Origin: Candidatus Poseidoniia archaeon
Lineage (GTDB): Archaea > Thermoplasmatota > Poseidoniia > MGIII > CG-Epi1
DNA: 64,000 nucleotides
Direction of reading: 5' to 3'
Assembly: GCA_030748895.1 (NCBI GenBank)
Contig: JASMLC010000004.1
Location: forward strand, 1-64,000
How positions within the stretch are numbered: position 1 is the first letter of the stretch; each line of letters opens with the position of its first letter. Below the pieces are notes generated by a model. That model was given only the letters and a program-made list of their open reading frames with translations, made no database searches and was not told the DNA's origin. Of this stretch, positions 15,687-24,815 are shown piece after piece. Made by a program: the position numbers and the translations under genes.

Positions 15687-18533
15687 CTAAACCTGTTCCG
15701 CCCAGTCATCGGGACAACTGCACGAAAGGTTGCGGTCACCCCACGCCTGGTCGATACGACCGACCGGTGGCCAGTACTTGTAATCGTGCAGCCACTTCGC
15801 CGGGAATGCCCCCTGTTCGCGCGGATAGGTGCGATTCCATACATCGGCTGTTACGGTAGCGGCTGTGTGCGGCGCATTGCACAGTGAGCTATCGCTAGGG
15901 GCGAGACTGCCGTCGGCGACCGCGGCGATTTCGGCGCGAATCGCGAGCATGGCGTCGCAGAAGCGGTCCAGCTCGGCGCGCGACTCGGACTCGGTCGGCT
16001 CGACCATCAGCGTCCCCGGCACCGGGAAGCTCATCGTCGGCGCGTGGTAGCCGTAGTCAATCAGCCGCTTGGCGACGTCGTCGACTGTCAGCCCCGCGTC
16101 GGCCAGCATCTGCCGCGTGTCGAGGATGCACTCGTGCGCGACGCGGCCGGTGGCGCCGGTATAGAGCACAGGGTAGGCGTCGCCGAGCCGCTGCGCGACG
16201 TAGTTGGCGTTGAGGATGGCGACCTGCGTCGCTTCGCGCAGCCCCACCGCGCCCATCATCGCGATGTACGCCCACGTTATCGGCAGGATTAGCGGGCTGC
16301 CGAAGTTGGCGGCCGAGACGGCGCCGCCACTGGCGGCGCCGTCGAACGAGTTGCTCGCGAGCGGGTCGTCAGTTAACGGGTCGCCCGGCAGGAACGGCGC
16401 GAGGTGGGCGGCGACGCCGATCGGCCCGGCGCCGGGGCCGCCGCCGCCGTGCGGGATGCAGAATGTCTTGTGCAGGTTGAGGTGGCAGACGTCGGCGCCG
16501 AACTCGGCCGGCCGGCAGAGGCCGACCATCGCGTTGAGGTTGGCGCCGTCAAGGTAGACCTGCCCGCCCGCGGCGTGGACGACGTCGCACACTTCGCGGA
16601 TGTGCGCTTCGAATACGCCGTGCGTCGAAGGGTAAGTGACCATCAGCGCCGCCAGCGCGTCGCCGCAATCAGCAGCGCGGGCCTTGAGGTCGGCGAGATC
16701 GATGTTGCCGCCAGCGTCGCACGCGACCGGGACGACGCGCATGCCGGCCATCACCGCCGAGGCGGGGTTGGTGCCGTGCGCGCTGGCGGGAATCAGGCAG
16801 GCGTCGCGGCCGCCTTCGCCGCGCGATGCGTGGAAGGCGCGAATCGCGAGCATCCCCGCCAGTTCGCCCTGCGAGCCGGCGTTGGGCTGGAGCGAAATGG
16901 CAGCGAAGCCGGTCATCTCGCAGAGCCATGTTTCGAGGTCGGTGATGAGGCGGCGGTAGCCGGCCGCCTGCTCCGGCGGCGCGAAGGGGTGGAGGTCGGC
17001 GAAGCCGGGCCACGTTATCGGCTCCATCTCGGCCGCCGCGTTGAGCTTCATGGTGCAGGAGCCGAGCGGAATCATGCTGGTGTTCAGCGCGAGGTCCTTC
17101 GTTTCGAGCCGGTGCAGGTAGCGCATGAACTCGGTCTCGCTGTGATACTGGTTGAAAACCGGATGCTCGAGGAACGGCGATGCGCGCTCCAGCGCAGCCG
17201 GCAGCGCGTCGCCGTGCGGGGTCGCCTGCTCCGCACCGAACAGGTGCAGCAGCTCCGCCAGTTCCCCGTCGCCGACGGTCTCGTCCAGCGCGATGCCGAC
17301 ATCGCCGTCACCGAGGTCGCGCAGGTTGATGCCGCTCGCGGCGGCGCGTTCGAGCGCGCCGGGGGCGGTGACGCGCAGCGTGTCGAAGAAATGGTCGTGC
17401 GCGACCGGAACGCCAGCCGCGCGCAGCGAAGCCGCCAGAATCCCCGTAAGGCAATGCACCCGCTCGGCGATGGCGCGCAGCTTGCGGGGGCCGTGGTAGA
17501 CTGCGTACATCGCCGCGGTGACGGCGAGCAGCACCTGCGCGGTGCAGATATTGCTCGTCGCGCGGTCGCGCCGGATGTGCTGCTCACGCGTCTGTAGCGC
17601 CAGCCGCAACGCGGGCGCGCCGTGCGCGTCGCGCGAAACGCCGACGAGGCGTCCCGGCAGCCGCCGCTTGAGCGCGTCACGCGTCGCGAGGAACGCCGCG
17701 TGCGGGCCGCCGTAGCCCAGCGGCACGCCGAAGCGCTGCGACGAACCGACGACAATGTCGGCACCCCATTCGCCGGGCGGCTTGAGCAGGCAGAGCGCCA
17801 GCAGGTCGGTCGCGACGACCGCCAGCGCGCCGGCGTCGTGCGCCGCGGCGACCACGCCCGCGTAGTCGCAGACCGCACCGTCGGTGGCGGGGTACTGTAG
17901 CAGCACGCCGAAGACGTCGTCGTCGAACTCCATCTCCGCCACCGGCGCGACGACGACGCGCAGCCCGAGCGGCGCAGCGCGGGTGCGCACGACGGCGATG
18001 CTTTGCGGATGGCAGTCGGCGGCGACCACGAAGGTGGCGCGGTCGCCGCGCGCCGCGTTGCACGCCATTGACATCGCTTCGGCGGCGGCGGTCGCTTCGT
18101 CGAGCAGCGAGGCGTTGGCGATTTCCATCGCCGTCAGGTCGCAAACCATGGTCTGGAAATTGAGCAGCGCTTCCAGCCGCCCCTGCGCGATTTCCGGCTG
18201 GTAGGGCGTATAGGCAGTATACCAGCCGGGGTTCTCGAGCAGGTTGCGCCGCAGCGCCGGCGGCGTGATGGTGCCGTAGTAGCCCATCCCGAGGTAACTA
18301 CGCGCCACCACGTTGCGCCCCGCGAGCTCACGCAGCGCCGCCAGCGCCGCCGCTTCCGAGAGCGGTGGTGGCAATTCGAGTGTCCCCGCCAGGCGAATGT
18401 CGGCCGGCACGACCGCGTCGGCCAGCTCGTCCAGCGTCGCGCAGCCGAGCTCGGCGAGCATCTCCGGGATGTCGGCTGGCGCCGGCCCGATGTGCCGGCG
18501 CACGAAGGTGTCGGGATGCTCGAACTGTGCCAT
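15687..18533 (-). CDS. gcvP: Glycine dehydrogenase (decarboxylating), single-chain P protein
   Basis: The PLP-dependent P protein of the glycine cleavage system decarboxylates glycine and passes the aminomethyl group to lipoyl-GcvH. It is 948 residues in one chain, the bacterial/mitochondrial form, whereas many archaea have split GcvPA/GcvPB. The N-terminal half has [12 protein letters not shown] and [14 protein letters not shown]. The C-terminal half carries the PLP lysine in [16 protein letters not shown] (near residue 695). GcvT, GcvH and GcvL are not in the window. A TATA-like element at ~18553-18562 fits a leaderless start at ATG 18533. Confidence 0.96.
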
Positions 18534-18634: not shown

Positions 18635-19057
18635 GTGCAGTCAAACACTGTGCGGCTTTTCACCCCGCGCGAGGCGAACGCGATGCTGCCGGTCCTGCGG
18701 CCGCTGCTGGTCGCGCTGGCCGACAAGTGCGCCGAGCGCGAGCAGCTCGAGGAGCTGCTGATTGAGGCCGAGCAGGACTTGGGCAAGGCGCCGGCGCGCG
18801 ACCGCATCGAGCTGGAGGTGCGGCTCGACACCAACCTGGCCGAGCGCAAGCGGCTCTTCGAGGCGCTGGCGCGGCACGGCATCGAGGTGAAGGACCCGGC
18901 GCTGGGGCTCATCGACTTCCACGCGCAGCGCGGGGCGGAGCTGGTCTATCTCTGTTACCGGCTGGGCGAGCCTGCCATAACGCACTGGCACCCGCTCGAG
19001 GAAGGCTTCAGCGGCCGCCAGCCGCTCGAGAGCGAACCGGAAATGTTGCGCGCTTAA
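18635..19057 (+). CDS. DUF2203 family protein
   Basis: This 140-residue protein begins at GTG 18635 with RLFTPREANAMLPVLRPLL, the typical opening of DUF2203. It contains a long helical middle and ends with GIEVKDPALGLIDFHAQR, YLCYRLGEPAITHWHPLEEGF, a strong match to the family's metal-binding-looking HWH region. Function is unknown. A CCCTAAATCTCC box 22-31 bases upstream supports the GTG start. It diverges from gcvP. Confidence 0.85.
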   Translation: MQSNTVRLFTPREANAMLPVLRPLLVALADKCAEREQLEELLIEAEQDLGKAPARDRIELEVRLDTNLAERKRLFEALARHGIEVKDPALGLIDFHAQRGAELVYLCYRLGEPAITHWHPLEEGFSGRQPLESEPEMLRA

Positions 19058-19101
19058 CCGCCTTCCCAGCGCGCGAACAGGTCTGCGTCGAGGCCGAGCA
19101 G
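19054..19101 (-). pseudogene. Remnant of a duplicated ubiX 3' end
   Basis: About 44 bases here match the 3' end of ubiX (19184-19227) with two mismatches, in the same orientation, 126 bases downstream of the original. The frame encodes LLGLDADLFARWEGG then TAA, identical in protein to the end of UbiX. No further upstream homology is visible. It overlaps the stop codon of the DUF2203 gene. Confidence 0.75.
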
Positions 19102-19179: not shown

Positions 19180-19740
19180 CTAGCCGCCTTCCCAGCGCGC
19201 GAACAGGTCCGCATCGAGGCCGAGCAGGTCGAGCACCCGGCCGGCGATGAAATTGACGTTGTCGTCTATGCTTTCGGGGCGATTGTAGAACGCCGGTGCG
19301 GCGGGCGCGATAATCGCGCCCGCCGTCGAAAGCCGCAGCATGTTCTCGATGTGGATGTGGCTGAACGGCGTCTCGCGCGGCACGAGGATTAGCGGCCGCC
19401 GCTCCTTGAGCATCACCGCGCCGGCGCGCGTCAGCAGGTTGTCGTTGACTCCCGCGGCGAGCTTGCCGAGCGTGTCCATCGAGCAGGGGACGATGACCAT
19501 CGCCCGCGCGCGGAACGAGCCGGAGGCAATCGAGGCGGCGACGTTGTCGTTGGGGTGCACCACGTCGGCCAGCGCTTCAACGTCAGCCCAGTCGCCATCG
19601 CACTCGTGGCGGTGTACCAGCTGCGCCGAGTCGGTCGCGACGAAGTGGGTCTCAACCGGCTGTTCGCGCAGCGCTTCGAGCAGCCGGACCCCGTAGGCAA
19701 TGCCGGAGGCGCCACTCATCCCGACCACGATGCGGTCCAT
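19180..19740 (-). CDS. ubiX: Flavin prenyltransferase UbiX
   Basis: UbiX attaches a dimethylallyl group to FMN to make prenylated FMN, the cofactor of UbiD enzymes. At 186 residues it is of normal length. Signatures are GMSGASGIAYGVRLLEAL near the N-terminus, PCSMDTLGKLAAGVNDNLLTRA and the ERRPLILVPRETPFS block. A UbiD-type gene lies 2 kb away in the mevalonate cluster, which makes it the likely partner. A CCTTAAGCCC box 20-30 bases upstream suggests a leaderless message. Confidence 0.95.
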   Translation of the reverse strand: MDRIVVGMSGASGIAYGVRLLEALREQPVETHFVATDSAQLVHRHECDGDWADVEALADVVHPNDNVAASIASGSFRARAMVIVPCSMDTLGKLAAGVNDNLLTRAGAVMLKERRPLILVPRETPFSHIHIENMLRLSTAGAIIAPAAPAFYNRPESIDDNVNFIAGRVLDLLGLDADLFARWEGG

Positions 19741-19795: not shown

Positions 19796-20725
19796 CTACG
19801 CGGTGCCCTTGCGCCACGCCTGCATCTCGGGCGACTCGTTTTCCCAGCCGAGATGCTGCTGCACCTGCTTGCCAGCACCATCGAGGTCAGGCATCTCGCC
19901 GGTGCGGGCGAACTCGTAAAGCGCCGCGACCACCACCACTTCGGCGGTGTTGGTCCAGAGGACGGCGAGCAGCACCAGCACGACGATGGCGATGATGCCG
20001 GGCAGCACGAGGCCGACCAGAATCAGCGGAACGCCGACCGCAAACGCGACCAGCACCAGCAGGAAGCCGATGAGGCCGACGCCGAGGCCGCTGGTGATGT
20101 TCTCGCCCCACGTCTTCGTGAAGAGCCCCTTGCTGGAGTTGAACGCGTCGCGGACGCCCTTGCCTTCGAGCACAATCATGGGGATGATGAAGAATGTGGT
20201 AATCCACCATGCCGTCTCGGCGATGAAGGCGAAGATGGCGCCCGCGATTTGCAGCGCCGGGTTTTTCGAATTGGCGGCTGCGTCGCGGATGAGCCGCATC
20301 AGGATTCCGAAGATGCCGGTGATAACGCCCCACGCCACGATGGTCGGCAGGTGCCGCATCGCGGCCGAGATGCCGGTCATGAAGCGCGGGTCGCCGCCGG
20401 TGAGCCGCATGTGCGCGCTGAAAGTTATGGCGCAGTTCCAGAAGACGACAATGGTCGCGCCGACGGTGTAGGTGACGAAAATCCAGGCGAGGTATAGCGG
20501 CGTCGCCGTCGTCTCGCCCGTCTCCGGGTCGGCGGTCATGGCCCAGTCGAACAGCGGCATTTCCATTTCGTAGCCGATGCCCGGCAGCGCGCCGGCGAGG
20601 ACGGTCAGCCCGACCATGATGCTCGAGAAGAGCATGTAGACCAGCAGCTCCGGGTCACGCCAGACGACGCCAAAGCTGAGCTTGCTGATGGCCCAGCCGC
20701 GGGCGATAGTGTCGAAGAAGCCCAT
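19796..20725 (-). CDS. DUF6159 family membrane protein
   Basis: This 309-residue protein opens with a conserved amphipathic GFFDTIARGWAISKLSFGVV and has about six membrane segments; this pattern matches the DUF6159 family found in archaea and bacteria. Segments at ~30-50, 85-110, 140-160, 175-200 and 225-275 are clear. The C-terminus is soluble and ends EFARTGEMPDLDGAGKQVQQHLG. Function is unknown. It lies between ubiX and the divergent mevalonate kinase gene. Confidence 0.75.
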   Translation of the reverse strand: MGFFDTIARGWAISKLSFGVVWRDPELLVYMLFSSIMVGLTVLAGALPGIGYEMEMPLFDWAMTADPETGETTATPLYLAWIFVTYTVGATIVVFWNCAITFSAHMRLTGGDPRFMTGISAAMRHLPTIVAWGVITGIFGILMRLIRDAAANSKNPALQIAGAIFAFIAETAWWITTFFIIPMIVLEGKGVRDAFNSSKGLFTKTWGENITSGLGVGLIGFLLVLVAFAVGVPLILVGLVLPGIIAIVVLVLLAVLWTNTAEVVVVAALYEFARTGEMPDLDGAGKQVQQHLGWENESPEMQAWRKGTA

Positions 20726-20865: not shown

Positions 20866-21795
20866 ATGGAGTTCACCGCCCCGGGCAAGGTCATCCTGTT
20901 CGGCGAGCACGCCGTGGTTTACGGCCATCCGGCCATCGCGGTGCCGCTCTCCGGGCTGCGCGCGCGGGCGTGGGTCGAGCCGACGCGCGACGGCGCGGGG
21001 CTCGTAATCCACGCGCGCGATTTAGGGCAGCGGCTGACGCTGGGCGGCGACCCGGCGCACCAGTTCTCGGTCGCGGCGCAGGCGGTGCTGGCGCGCGCCG
21101 GCGCCCCGGAGCCGAACGCGACGGTCAATCTCGAATCGGCCATCCCGTCGGCGGCCGGCATGGGCAGCAGCGCCGCCACTTCGACCGCGGTCTGTCGCGC
21201 GCTGGCGGCGCATCTCGGCGCGGAGCTGTCGGCCGGGGAGGTTTCCGGCATCGTCTTCCAGGCCGAGCGGGTGGTGCACGGCACCCCCAGCGGCATCGAC
21301 AACACGGTGGTGGCGCACGAGGAGCCGGTCTGGTTCACCAGCGGCGAGCCGCCGCGGCCGTTCCGCTCGCCGGCGCGCTGCCATCTCGTGCTGGGGAATA
21401 CCGGCATCACCGCGTCAACGGGGGAACTGGTCGCCGGCGTTCGCAAACGGCACGACGCGGAGCCACGGAGGTACGACGGCTACTTCGCGGCCATCGGCGC
21501 GCTCGTCGGGGACGCGCGCGCCGCGCTCGAAAGCGGAGCGCTGGCGCAGGTGGGCGAGCTGATGGACGCCAACCACGAGCTGCTCAACAGCATCGGCGTC
21601 GGCCATCCCGAACTCGATGCGCTGGTGGCGATTGCGCGCGATGCCGGGGCGCTCGGCGCGAAGCTGACCGGCAAGGGCGGCGGCGGCAACATGGTCGCGC
21701 TCACCGAAGGGGCGGACGGGCAGGCGGCGGTGGCGCAGGCGCTGACCGAAGCCGGTTATACGGCATACGAGACTGCCTTCGGCGGAGCGACATGA
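20866..21795 (+). CDS. mvk: Mevalonate kinase
   Basis: A GHMP-fold kinase phosphorylating mevalonate to mevalonate 5-phosphate, 309 residues. Motif 1 is APGKVILFGEHAVVYGHPAIA in layout (the APGK and GEHAVVYG elements are diagnostic), motif 2 is PSAAGMGSSAATSTA, and motif 3 is KLTGKGGGGNMVAL. A CGTAAATCCC box 20-28 bases upstream supports a leaderless start at ATG 20866. The UbiD-type gene overlaps by four bases, with aconitase X after it, so three consecutive steps of the archaeal mevalonate pathway are clustered. Confidence 0.95.
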   Translation: MEFTAPGKVILFGEHAVVYGHPAIAVPLSGLRARAWVEPTRDGAGLVIHARDLGQRLTLGGDPAHQFSVAAQAVLARAGAPEPNATVNLESAIPSAAGMGSSAATSTAVCRALAAHLGAELSAGEVSGIVFQAERVVHGTPSGIDNTVVAHEEPVWFTSGEPPRPFRSPARCHLVLGNTGITASTGELVAGVRKRHDAEPRRYDGYFAAIGALVGDARAALESGALAQVGELMDANHELLNSIGVGHPELDALVAIARDAGALGAKLTGKGGGGNMVALTEGADGQAAVAQALTEAGYTAYETAFGGAT

Positions 21796-23066
21796 ACCTG
21801 CGCGAATTCGTTGACCTGCTCGCCGAGTCGGGGCGACTGCGAACTATCTCCCGCCGCGTGGACCCGAAGTACGAAGTCGCGGCGCTGATGGCGCAGGCGG
21901 GCGACACCCCGCTGCTATTCACCAACGTCGCCGGCAGCCGGATGGAGGTCGTGACCAACATCTGCGCTTCGCGCGAGCTGGTCGCGCTCGGGCTCGGCTG
22001 CGACCCTTCGGAAATCATGGAGCGCATCGCCACCGCAGGCGACTCGCAGGCGGAGGTGCCGCGCGCCGAGGCGACGGGCTACCGCGAGGTCGAGCCGACG
22101 CTGGCGGGGCTCCCTGTCCTGACGCACCAGCATTTCGACGGCGGCCCCTACATTGCGTCGGCAATCGCCGCCGCCCACGACGGGGAGCACGGGCTCAACC
22201 TGAGCTACCACCGCGGGATGAAGCTGGACGACCGGCGGCTGGTGCTGCGCATCGTGCCGCGCGACCTTGACGCCTACCGCCAGCGCGGCCTGACTGAGTT
22301 CGCCTATTGCAACGGCGTCTCTGTTCCCGTACTGCTCGGCGCCGCGACCAGCTTCGGCATCGAGATGGACGAGATGTCCATCGCCAACGCGCTCGGCGCA
22401 GCCCCGCTCATCGAGGTCGGCGGGCACACAGTGCCGCAGTCGGAGCTGGTGATGGTGTGCGAATTTACGGGAGAAATGGCCGACGAGGGGCCGTTCCTTG
22501 ACCTTACGGAAACGCCGGACATCGTCCGCAGCCAGCCGGTGGTGCGGCTGAAGCGGCTCTTCCTGCGCGACGACTCGCTGTTCCACGCGCTCCTGCCGGG
22601 CGGCCCCGAGCACAAGGTGCTGATGGGGATGCCGCGCGAGCCGACCATCTTCCACGCCGTCTCGCAGGTGACGGACTGCGTCGACGTCCACATCACCCCC
22701 GGCGGCTCGTCGTGGCTGCACGCGGTCGTCGCCATCCGACCCCACACGCCGGGCGACGGCCGCAAGGCAATCGAGGCGGCGTTCGCCGGCCACGCGTCGC
22801 TGAAGCACGTTTGGGTGGTCAACGACGACGTCGATGTCCGCGACCGCGACATGGTCGAGTGGGCCTTCGCGACCCGCTTCCAGGGCGACCGCGACACGGT
22901 CGCGTTCCAGTCCAAGGGCTCGTCCCTTGACCCGTCGGCGTGCGTCGAGACACACGAGACCTGCAAGCAGGGGTTTGACTGCACCATCCCCGACGACCGC
23001 GGCGCGGCGCACTTCGCGCGCACCCCGCCGGCGATGGACGTGAAGCTCGAAGATTACCTTGACTGA
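21792..23066 (+). CDS. UbiD-type decarboxylase, probable anhydromevalonate phosphate decarboxylase
   Basis: This 424-residue UbiD family protein begins MNLREFVDLLAESGRL. It has UbiD landmarks: NLSYHRGMKLDD, CEFTGEMADEGPFLDLTE and HAVVAIRP. Archaeal UbiD proteins of this length act as trans-anhydromevalonate 5-phosphate decarboxylases, making isopentenyl phosphate with prenylated FMN. The position between mevalonate kinase (4-base overlap) and aconitase X supports this over ubiquinone or aromatic acid decarboxylation. The substrate is inferred from context, not from a residue I could verify. Confidence 0.88.
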   Translation: MNLREFVDLLAESGRLRTISRRVDPKYEVAALMAQAGDTPLLFTNVAGSRMEVVTNICASRELVALGLGCDPSEIMERIATAGDSQAEVPRAEATGYREVEPTLAGLPVLTHQHFDGGPYIASAIAAAHDGEHGLNLSYHRGMKLDDRRLVLRIVPRDLDAYRQRGLTEFAYCNGVSVPVLLGAATSFGIEMDEMSIANALGAAPLIEVGGHTVPQSELVMVCEFTGEMADEGPFLDLTETPDIVRSQPVVRLKRLFLRDDSLFHALLPGGPEHKVLMGMPREPTIFHAVSQVTDCVDVHITPGGSSWLHAVVAIRPHTPGDGRKAIEAAFAGHASLKHVWVVNDDVDVRDRDMVEWAFATRFQGDRDTVAFQSKGSSLDPSACVETHETCKQGFDCTIPDDRGAAHFARTPPAMDVKLEDYLD

Positions 23067-23105
23067 CGCCCCCAATCCCTTAACCCCGGTCCAGCCTGCG
23101 CGAGC

Positions 23106-24815
23106 GTGAAGCTCACCCCCGACCAGCAGGCGATGCTCGCCGGCGACCGCGGCGCGGCGAAGCAGATGGCGATGCGGCTGCTGGTCGACCTGGGCACCGC
23201 CGCCGGGGCTCCGCGGCTGGTACCGGTGGTGGCGGCACACGTCTCGGGCGTCTCGCCGCTTACCGGCGGGCACGGACTGATTACCTTTCTGGAACGGCTC
23301 GGTGACGACGCGCGGGTGGCGGTCGAGACGACGCTCAACGCGGCCGGCTGCGACAGCCGCTGCTGGCGCGAGATGGGCGCCACCACCGACTACGTAGAGC
23401 GGCAGCAGCGCATCCTTGATGCCTACGCGGCGTTCGGAGTGCGGATGACGCTCTCCTGCACACCCTACGAAGCGACCGCCGCGCCGCTTCCCGACGGGGT
23501 CGGCGCGTGGGCCGAGTCGAACGCGGTCTGCTACGCCAACTCGTATACGGGTTTGCGGACCAACCGCGACTCGGGGCTGTCGGCGCTGGCGGCGGCCATC
23601 TGCGGCTGCACGCCGGATTACGGGCTGCTGCGCGACGAGCATCGCGCCGCGAACCTGCTGGTCGAGGTCGAGTGCGAACTGGCGGAGCCGGTCGATTTCT
23701 CGGTGCTGGGCGACTGGGTCGGCAAGCAACTCTCCCCGGGGCTGACGCTGCCGTGGGGGCCGGTACCGCACTTCCGCGGTGTCGGCGAGGCGAGCCACGA
23801 ATCACGCAAGGCGCTCTCGGCGGCGGCGGCCAACTACGGCTGCGCGCTGCTCTATCTCGACGAGCCGCCCGCGGCGGAATACCGGGCGACGCTGCGCTTC
23901 ACCGCCGCCGACCTCGCGACGCGCTACGCGGAACTGGCGCCGCGCCACGCCGTCGACCTCGTGGTTATCGGCTGCCCGCAGGCGTCGCCCGGCGAGGTGC
24001 GCGCGACGGCGGAGCTGGTGCGTGGGCGCAGCCTGCCGGCAGGGCGGTTGTGGGTCTTCACCGCCGCGCGCCACTGGGAAGCGCTGCGCGACGAGGTCGC
24101 CGCGATTGAGGCAGCGGGAGGCATGGTGCTGCGCGACACCTGCCCCGAGGTAGTGCACTACGACCGCGGCGCGGTCAACCACATCCTGACCAACTCGCTC
24201 AAGGCGGAACATTACCTGCAATCGGGCCTCAACAGCATGCCGACCTCGGTCGCGCCGCTCGCCGACTGCATCGCGCACGCCGCCGACCCGGCGCTGGCTG
24301 GCGGTGGCCGTGCAGGTGCTTCGGGCGGTGCGCCGCCGCGCGCGGCGGCGCACCGCTCCGCGAAAACGGTGCAGGCGAGCGCGCTTACGCTGGCCGGCCA
24401 CGGCATCGAGTCGCAGGACGCGTGGGCGGTCGAGGGCGAAGCGCTCGTCACCGACGTGCCGCTCACATTCCTCGGCTTCGTCAATCGCAAGACCGGCGCG
24501 GTCGAGGAGCCGGGGCATCCGCTCGACGGCGAAAGCATCGCCGGCCGGGTGCTGGTATTCCCGCGTGGCAGCGGCTCGAGCGTCGCGCCCTATGTGCTGC
24601 TCGGCCTGCTCTACCGCGACGCCGGTCCCCTCGCCGTGGTCAACACGGCGCTCGACCAGCAGACGCTTCCCGCCTGCTCGCTGCTCGGCGTACCGTACGC
24701 GCACTCGTTCGACGCCGACCCCTGCCTCGCGCTCAACAGCGGCGACCGCGTGCGGCTCGAATTGCGCGACGGGCGCGTCGCGCTGGAAGTGCTCGCGCGC
24801 AGGCTCAAGGCTTAA
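23106..24815 (+). CDS. Aconitase X, fused large and small subunits; probable phosphomevalonate dehydratase
   Basis: This 569-residue protein is a fusion. Residues ~1-410 match the aconitase-X large subunit (DUF521), with GGHGLITFLERL, LNAAGCDSRCW, ESNAVCYANSYTGLRTNRDSG in layout, and cysteines suited to an Fe-S cluster. Residues ~425-569 match the small subunit (DUF126), with GRVLVFPRGSGSSVAPYVL. In archaea this enzyme dehydrates mevalonate 5-phosphate to trans-anhydromevalonate 5-phosphate, usually as two separate chains. The join region (~400-425) is Ala/Gly-rich. The start is GTG 23106, with a CCTTAACCCC box ~25 bases upstream. The neighbours are the enzymes before and after it in the pathway. 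Confidence 0.88.
   Translation: MKLTPDQQAMLAGDRGAAKQMAMRLLVDLGTAAGAPRLVPVVAAHVSGVSPLTGGHGLITFLERLGDDARVAVETTLNAAGCDSRCWREMGATTDYVERQQRILDAYAAFGVRMTLSCTPYEATAAPLPDGVGAWAESNAVCYANSYTGLRTNRDSGLSALAAAICGCTPDYGLLRDEHRAANLLVEVECELAEPVDFSVLGDWVGKQLSPGLTLPWGPVPHFRGVGEASHESRKALSAAAANYGCALLYLDEPPAAEYRATLRFTAADLATRYAELAPRHAVDLVVIGCPQASPGEVRATAELVRGRSLPAGRLWVFTAARHWEALRDEVAAIEAAGGMVLRDTCPEVVHYDRGAVNHILTNSLKAEHYLQSGLNSMPTSVAPLADCIAHAADPALAGGGRAGASGGAPPRAAAHRSAKTVQASALTLAGHGIESQDAWAVEGEALVTDVPLTFLGFVNRKTGAVEEPGHPLDGESIAGRVLVFPRGSGSSVAPYVLLGLLYRDAGPLAVVNTALDQQTLPACSLLGVPYAHSFDADPCLALNSGDRVRLELRDGRVALEVLARRLKA

Follow-up and report, generated by a model that had tools for sequence, protein, structure and literature searches.

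In this study, we analyzed a window of 64,000 nucleotides (contig JASMLC010000004.1, positions 1 to 64,000) from a Candidatus Poseidoniia archaeon of Marine Group III (MGIII), in which three consecutive genes on the plus strand encode a mevalonate kinase (MVK), a UbiD-family decarboxylase and an aconitase X (AcnX). These genes very probably make up the part of the modified mevalonate pathway that is specific to archaea, its lower half, and they are clustered in MGIII. We judge the cluster to be another case of the already known archaeal mevalonate gene set, and the AcnX, a putative phosphomevalonate dehydratase (PMDh) of one chain, to be a third architecture of a known enzyme. No description of a one-chain PMDh or of the mevalonate route of MGIII was found in the open-licence literature. 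An earlier note on this DNA had reported MVK, UbiD and AcnX as adjacent genes, and the coordinates and family scans agree with it:

20866-21795, plus strand: MVK (TIGR00549, 260 bits, cut-off 163)
21792-23066, plus strand: UbiD-family decarboxylase (TIGR00148, 263.5 bits, cut-off 244.9)
23106-24815, plus strand: AcnX, single chain of 569 aa with a GTG start (PF04412 and PF01989)

The best match of MVK among solved structures is the mevalonate kinase 6mde (E 4.7e-37), and the UbiD protein contains the N, Rift-related and C domains of the family (PF20695, PF01977 and PF20696). The third gene is an aconitase X as the earlier note stated, though it was overlooked there that the catalytic part and the swivel domain are fused in one frame, in which the swivel follows the catalytic part (domain order 1-2-3-linker-4):

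23106-24275, plus strand: catalytic part, domains 1-2-3, residues 1-390 (PF04412 at 1-389), equivalent to the large subunit of split PMDh
24276-24395, plus strand: linker, about residues 391-430, placed by the structure model (confidence below 50 at 400-412)
24396-24800, plus strand: swivel domain 4, about residues 431-565 (PF01989 at 453-530; matches to 2hi6 and 7cnr_B), equivalent to the small subunit

The literature describes AcnX proteins either as single chains of order 4-1-2-3 (type I) or as pairs of chains (type II), the archaeal dehydratase being type IIb (PMC8184944, PMC10040528). A survey of all archaeal orders names AcnX1 and AcnX2 as the genes of the dehydratase, and its main text contains none of the words Poseidoni, aconitase and fus (PMC11052028). 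The one-frame order 1-2-3-4 was found in 80 of 80 named Poseidoniia loci and in 30 of 30 loci taken from the class (partly the same genomes); AcnX is split in the reading frames of 30 of 30 other Thermoplasmatota loci. Of 271 confirmed genome-contig relatives the best 80 were covered, so that fused AcnX may also exist outside Poseidoniia. Bacterial fusions in the order 1-2-3-4 had been suggested by tblastn against plasmids, but reading of the frames showed the order 4-1-2-3 in Paracoccus denitrificans and split genes in Cupriavidus. In total, nine bacterial plasmid loci were read from 160 records with a match, and four were type I (4-1-2-3) and five split.

Landmark residues of the dehydratase were located in the window by alignment:

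23457-23459, plus strand: Cys118, cluster ligand site A (Cys110 of Thermococcus kodakarensis AcnX, TkAcnX)
23973-23975, plus strand: Cys290, cluster ligand site 1 (Cys283 of TkAcnX; Ser in type I)
24141-24143, plus strand: Cys346, cluster ligand site 2 (Cys342 of TkAcnX)
24576-24578, plus strand: Ser491, aligned with Ser62 of the TkAcnX small subunit, the proposed general base

The second position after Cys346 is Glu instead of Cys, and there is no cluster Cys at site C. We aligned 82 Poseidoniia AcnX sequences (17 from MGIII including the window and 65 from Marine Group II, MGII) and read the positions listed as ligands in PMC8184944. All 82 keep the three cluster Cys of PMDh, the Gly-Val-Ser phosphate loop, Glu129, Ser130, Lys361 and Tyr365, and Ser62, Val64 and Leu27 of domain 4 (TkAcnX numbers). 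Asn79 is kept in 81, the remaining row reading X, and small-subunit position 63 is occupied by Thr or Ser. In contrast, five type I sequences have Ser or Asn at Cys283 and thus lack the site 1 Cys of PMDh, and they show Cys and Ile (one Phe) in the loop, Thr or Ala at Val64 and Trp or Met at Leu27. The type I residues Asp203, Ile206, Ser449, Thr72 and Trp35 (AtAcnX numbering) occur in none of the 82 Poseidoniia sequences, which read Ser, Ser, Val and Leu at Asp203, Ile206, Thr72 and Trp35, respectively. This comparison is discriminating, because AcnX types IIc to IIf carry neither the PMDh nor the hydroxyproline set of landmarks (PMC8184944).

The predicted structure of AcnX (36-sequence alignment; pLDDT 88.5, falling below 50 only within the linker; pTM 0.89) matched best to 7cnr_A (Z 48.5, rmsd 1.9 over 373 residues), compared with Z 35.9 for type I. 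Moreover, its full chain and mitochondrial aconitase aligned co-linearly along 461-475 residues, with Z about 16-17 and an rmsd of about 5, and Foldseek ranked the matches in the same order. The fused AcnX resembles type IIb PMDh (T. kodakarensis 7CNR/7CNS and Aeropyrum pernix) in the fold, the three cluster Cys, the phosphate loop, the catalytic Ser, Glu and Lys and the swivel Val64 and Leu27, and the structural alignment gives it 36% identity with the large subunit from Thermococcus. It differs from type IIb in being one chain and not two subunits, in Ser47, Thr53 and Asn131, and in its long stem in the tree. By the definition in the literature it is not type II because the subunits are not separate, though it should work like a type II PMDh. 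With type I it shares the single chain, the AcnX fold and the Asn after the Glu-Ser pair, but the domain order is the opposite, and the cluster ligands and substrate residues differ (PMC8184944). On the other hand, mitochondrial and AcnA-type aconitases have the same order 1-2-3-linker-4 in one chain and match along the full length, though the identity is 11-13% and the family and substrate differ. With this chain, aconitase X has a third domain architecture that parallels the aconitase A chain, and the same fold is joined in both possible orders.

The nearest named relatives of the window are MGIII and other Poseidoniia metagenome-assembled genomes (L036 at 92% and L037 at 87% identity), and the order of the three genes recurs in MGIII. 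UbiD lies immediately 5' of AcnX in 15 of 15 named MGIII loci (L036-L049 and L066), and MVK lies 5' of UbiD in 14 of the 15, the contig of L037 starting at UbiD; this recurrence argues that the clustering is not due to chance. Elsewhere, the archaeal modified mevalonate pathway differs from that of MGIII, in which MVK, UbiD and fused AcnX are directly consecutive and PMDh is one chain. The MVK and UbiD frames overlap by 4 nt (ATGA, 21792-21795), the AcnX start follows the UbiD stop by 39 nt, and the three genes are probably co-transcribed. In addition, the gene for the flavin prenyltransferase, reported before as about 1 kb away on the other strand, was measured at 1.1 kb from the cluster:

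19180-19740, minus strand: ubiX, flavin prenyltransferase (TIGR00421, 237 bits, cut-off 109)

It occupies the same upstream, opposite-strand position in 8 of the 15 named MGIII loci, and the remaining contigs start before that point. Among non-Poseidoniia Thermoplasmatota with both genes, UbiD lies within 4 kb 5' of AcnX on the same strand in 13 of 53 genomes, and within 75 bp in five of these 13. The neighbours of AcnX in MGII loci differ from those in MGIII; in L115, the only annotated MGII locus, a SpoU methylase precedes AcnX and a tRNA-guanine-transglycosylase-like protein follows it. The short UbiD of MGII is located 6.1-8.0 kb from isopentenyl phosphate kinase (IPK) in 27 of 27 genomes with both on one contig, and on a different contig from IPK in 7 genomes.

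The genome to which the window belongs (1.41 Mb in 72 contigs, 97.28% complete) possesses the parts of the modified pathway, namely, MVK, AcnX, UbiD, UbiX and IPK. AcnX and UbiD each occur once, the HMG-CoA reductase scores 345 bits, and IPK, whose presence the earlier note had proposed to check, scores 142.6 bits against a cut-off of 120 (NF040647); these results support the modified mevalonate reading given in that note. The two GHMP kinase matches are MVK and a pantoate-kinase-like gene, leaving no candidate for phosphomevalonate kinase among them, and the two matches of the amino-acid-kinase fold are IPK and a carbamate-kinase-like protein. A diphosphomevalonate decarboxylase was also looked for, and no gene in this genome exceeded the cut-off of PF22700 (diphosphomevalonate-decarboxylase-like), the sole match being MVK itself (22.3 bits against 27). 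The full classical pathway was thus sought in the genome and not found, and the haloarchaeal and Thermoplasma-type routes are likewise unsupported by these matches. Across the class, UbiD exceeded the cut-off in 57 and IPK in 50 of 60 genomes. PF22700 did so in 5 of the 60; by position three of these are the MVK gene beside UbiD, and the other two are GHMP-like genes just above the cut-off (G030 and G059). AcnX was found in 274 of 292 class genomes, and 17 of the 18 genomes without a match are less than 90% complete.

As for the UbiD protein, a tree of 70 rows made by a quick method included HmfF, AnInD and distant UbiDs as references, eight of the distant rows coming from genomes without an AcnX match. 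The window UbiD and the other MGIII UbiDs formed a group of 18 rows (support 100), which together with the 'ThplmA' set made 36 rows (support 99.9). They sit inside a set of Thermoplasmatota UbiDs (56 rows, SH-aLRT 99) from which HmfF, AnInD and 12 rows of distant or MGII-long UbiDs stand apart; grouping with aromatic decarboxylases, which the earlier note had raised as a counter-argument, was not seen for the two in the tree (HmfF and AnInD). Moreover, a close UbiD was found in 53 of 56 non-Poseidoniia genomes with AcnX versus 3 of 27 in which the search gave no AcnX match (83 genomes: both 53, AcnX alone 3, UbiD alone 3, neither 24). The Fisher test gave p 1.6e-14 without correction for kinship, the genomes not being phylogenetically independent. 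The three genomes with a close UbiD and no AcnX match are 81, 73 and 63% complete. These results support the assignment of the UbiD protein as the trans-anhydromevalonate 5-phosphate decarboxylase (AMPD) of the modified pathway. The previous proposal to name it by pathway is upheld by its tree position, its co-occurrence with AcnX and the gene order, and both UbiD and AcnX of the cluster are to be named in this way.

Most MGII genomes (L146-L175) carry a second, long UbiD (frames of about 560-730 aa), whose place in the tree is among the distant UbiDs; MGIII genomes are without it.

Several results weigh against the assignments above. Poseidoniia AcnX differs from TkAcnX at three landmarks (Ala47 to Ser, Asn53 to Thr and Ser131 to Asn). 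Of 30 split relatives, 4 likewise have Ser at position 47 and 29 have Ser at position 53, and the Asn at Ser131 is as in type I. In the AcnX tree, the fused proteins join the archaeal dehydratases with support of 92/56, and a tree uniting them with type I is kept (p-AU 0.451 for the catalytic part, 0.237 with domain 4). The tree alone therefore does not settle descent from archaeal PMDh. With regard to UbiD, no characterised AMPD of Aeropyrum or Methanosarcina was among the rows of the tree, so that the assignment rests on co-occurrence, tree position and gene order. In addition, a single clade of MGIII UbiD and MGII short UbiD was rejected (p-AU 0.021), so that the two are not closest kin; this suggests a replacement of the decarboxylase in one order or the other, MGIII or MGII.

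The shared Asn and the surviving union with type I might be taken to mean that AcnX is a type I-like hydroxyproline enzyme acting on cis-3-hydroxy-L-proline, all the more as the only NCBIfam equivalog of AcnX type that it matches, below the cut-off, is the hydroxyproline model. We consider this very unlikely, because the type I landmarks that were compared are absent from all 82 Poseidoniia sequences, and because AcnX is the sole copy in the genome and keeps its place beside UbiD, with MVK, in MGIII. Moreover, without AcnX as PMDh the genome would have no found route onward from mevalonate 5-phosphate. AcnX is probably a mevalonate 5-phosphate dehydratase. Equally hard to accept is the explanation that the UbiD protein, instead of being AMPD, decarboxylates aromatic acids or serves a quinone pathway. 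UbiD is a broad family, and the closest match of the protein among solved structures is 6h6x (E 1.8e-57), which we take to be HmfF, a furan dicarboxylate decarboxylase; however, the protein is the only UbiD of its genome, falls within the Thermoplasmatota group apart from HmfF and AnInD, and belongs to a set that tracks AcnX among genomes.

The origin of the fusion was approached by the same trees. Fused AcnX formed a single group (100/100) with a stem of 1.86 changes per column. The attempt to fix its origin by three trees was given up, as long branches meet and alternatives stand. In these trees, MGII was thinned to 17 of 65 rows in the first and to fewer in both later ones, where Thermoplasmatota rows were also thinned (L180 and L184 were left out of both, and L145 was left out of the catalytic-part tree). 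Either an archaeal enzyme may have been fused and then changed fast, or the history may be more complex. Among Thermoplasmatota with split AcnX, 27 of the 28 loci with both genes have the small-subunit gene directly 3' of the large-subunit gene (it is about 0.9 kb off in L141), so that the fused order would arise if the intervening stop were lost. The same arrangement would let an assembly or frameshift artefact join adjacent genes into such a frame, an idea that we regard as practically negligible in view of the identical frame in the named and class loci, from many separate assemblies, and the many invariant residues in domain 4.

Two loci titled Deltaproteobacteria (L059) and Chloroflexi (L099) carry the Poseidoniia-type fused AcnX and are probably misnamed or mixed bins; the AcnX of L099 falls inside MGII in the tree.

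From the genes, residues and genomic complement described here, we infer the substrates, cluster type and activities of the route as follows. MVK would produce mevalonate 5-phosphate. AcnX, as a one-chain PMDh whose former small subunit is joined by the linker to the C-terminus of the large one, would dehydrate it to trans-anhydromevalonate 5-phosphate, using a [4Fe-4S] cluster with Cys118, Cys290 and Cys346 as its ligands, and Ser491 of the swivel as the base. UbiD, supplied with prenylated FMN by UbiX, would decarboxylate this product to isopentenyl phosphate. Its phosphorylation to isopentenyl diphosphate would be catalysed by IPK, whose gene lies elsewhere in the genome. A complete mevalonate route is thereby assigned, on more than annotation, to the Poseidoniia, a class of marine archaea that is abundant and as yet uncultured. 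A one-gene PMDh could be expressed without balancing two subunits, and it offers a natural test of whether joining of the swivel protects the cluster from oxygen. Poseidoniia are aerobic, and some aerobic archaea use ATP-dependent decarboxylases. It is a tentative and rather doubtful suggestion that the one-chain PMDh throughout Poseidoniia lets these aerobic archaea of the surface ocean keep the route dependent on Fe-S and prenyl-FMN, with UbiDs of different descent in the orders. If true, a two-subunit, oxygen-labile PMDh became one chain of aconitase-A-like order, opposite to the bacterial type I fusion.

Other features were noticed around the cluster. On its 3' side, family scans gave genes for topoisomerase VI subunit B and a fibrillarin-like methyltransferase, which mark the host as archaeal. 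Between ubiX and MVK, a family scan identified the following gene:

19796-20725, minus strand: DUF6159 gene

It is present in L036, L040 and L041, and the other MGIII loci gave no tblastn match. A stretch of 47 nt including the 3' end of ubiX occurs twice (19055-19101 and 19181-19227; 94% identical, 126 nt from start to start), which looks like a partial duplication downstream of ubiX. Finally, 15687-18533 on the minus strand encodes a one-chain protein of 948 aa that reads like glycine dehydrogenase and adjoins a DUF2203 gene.

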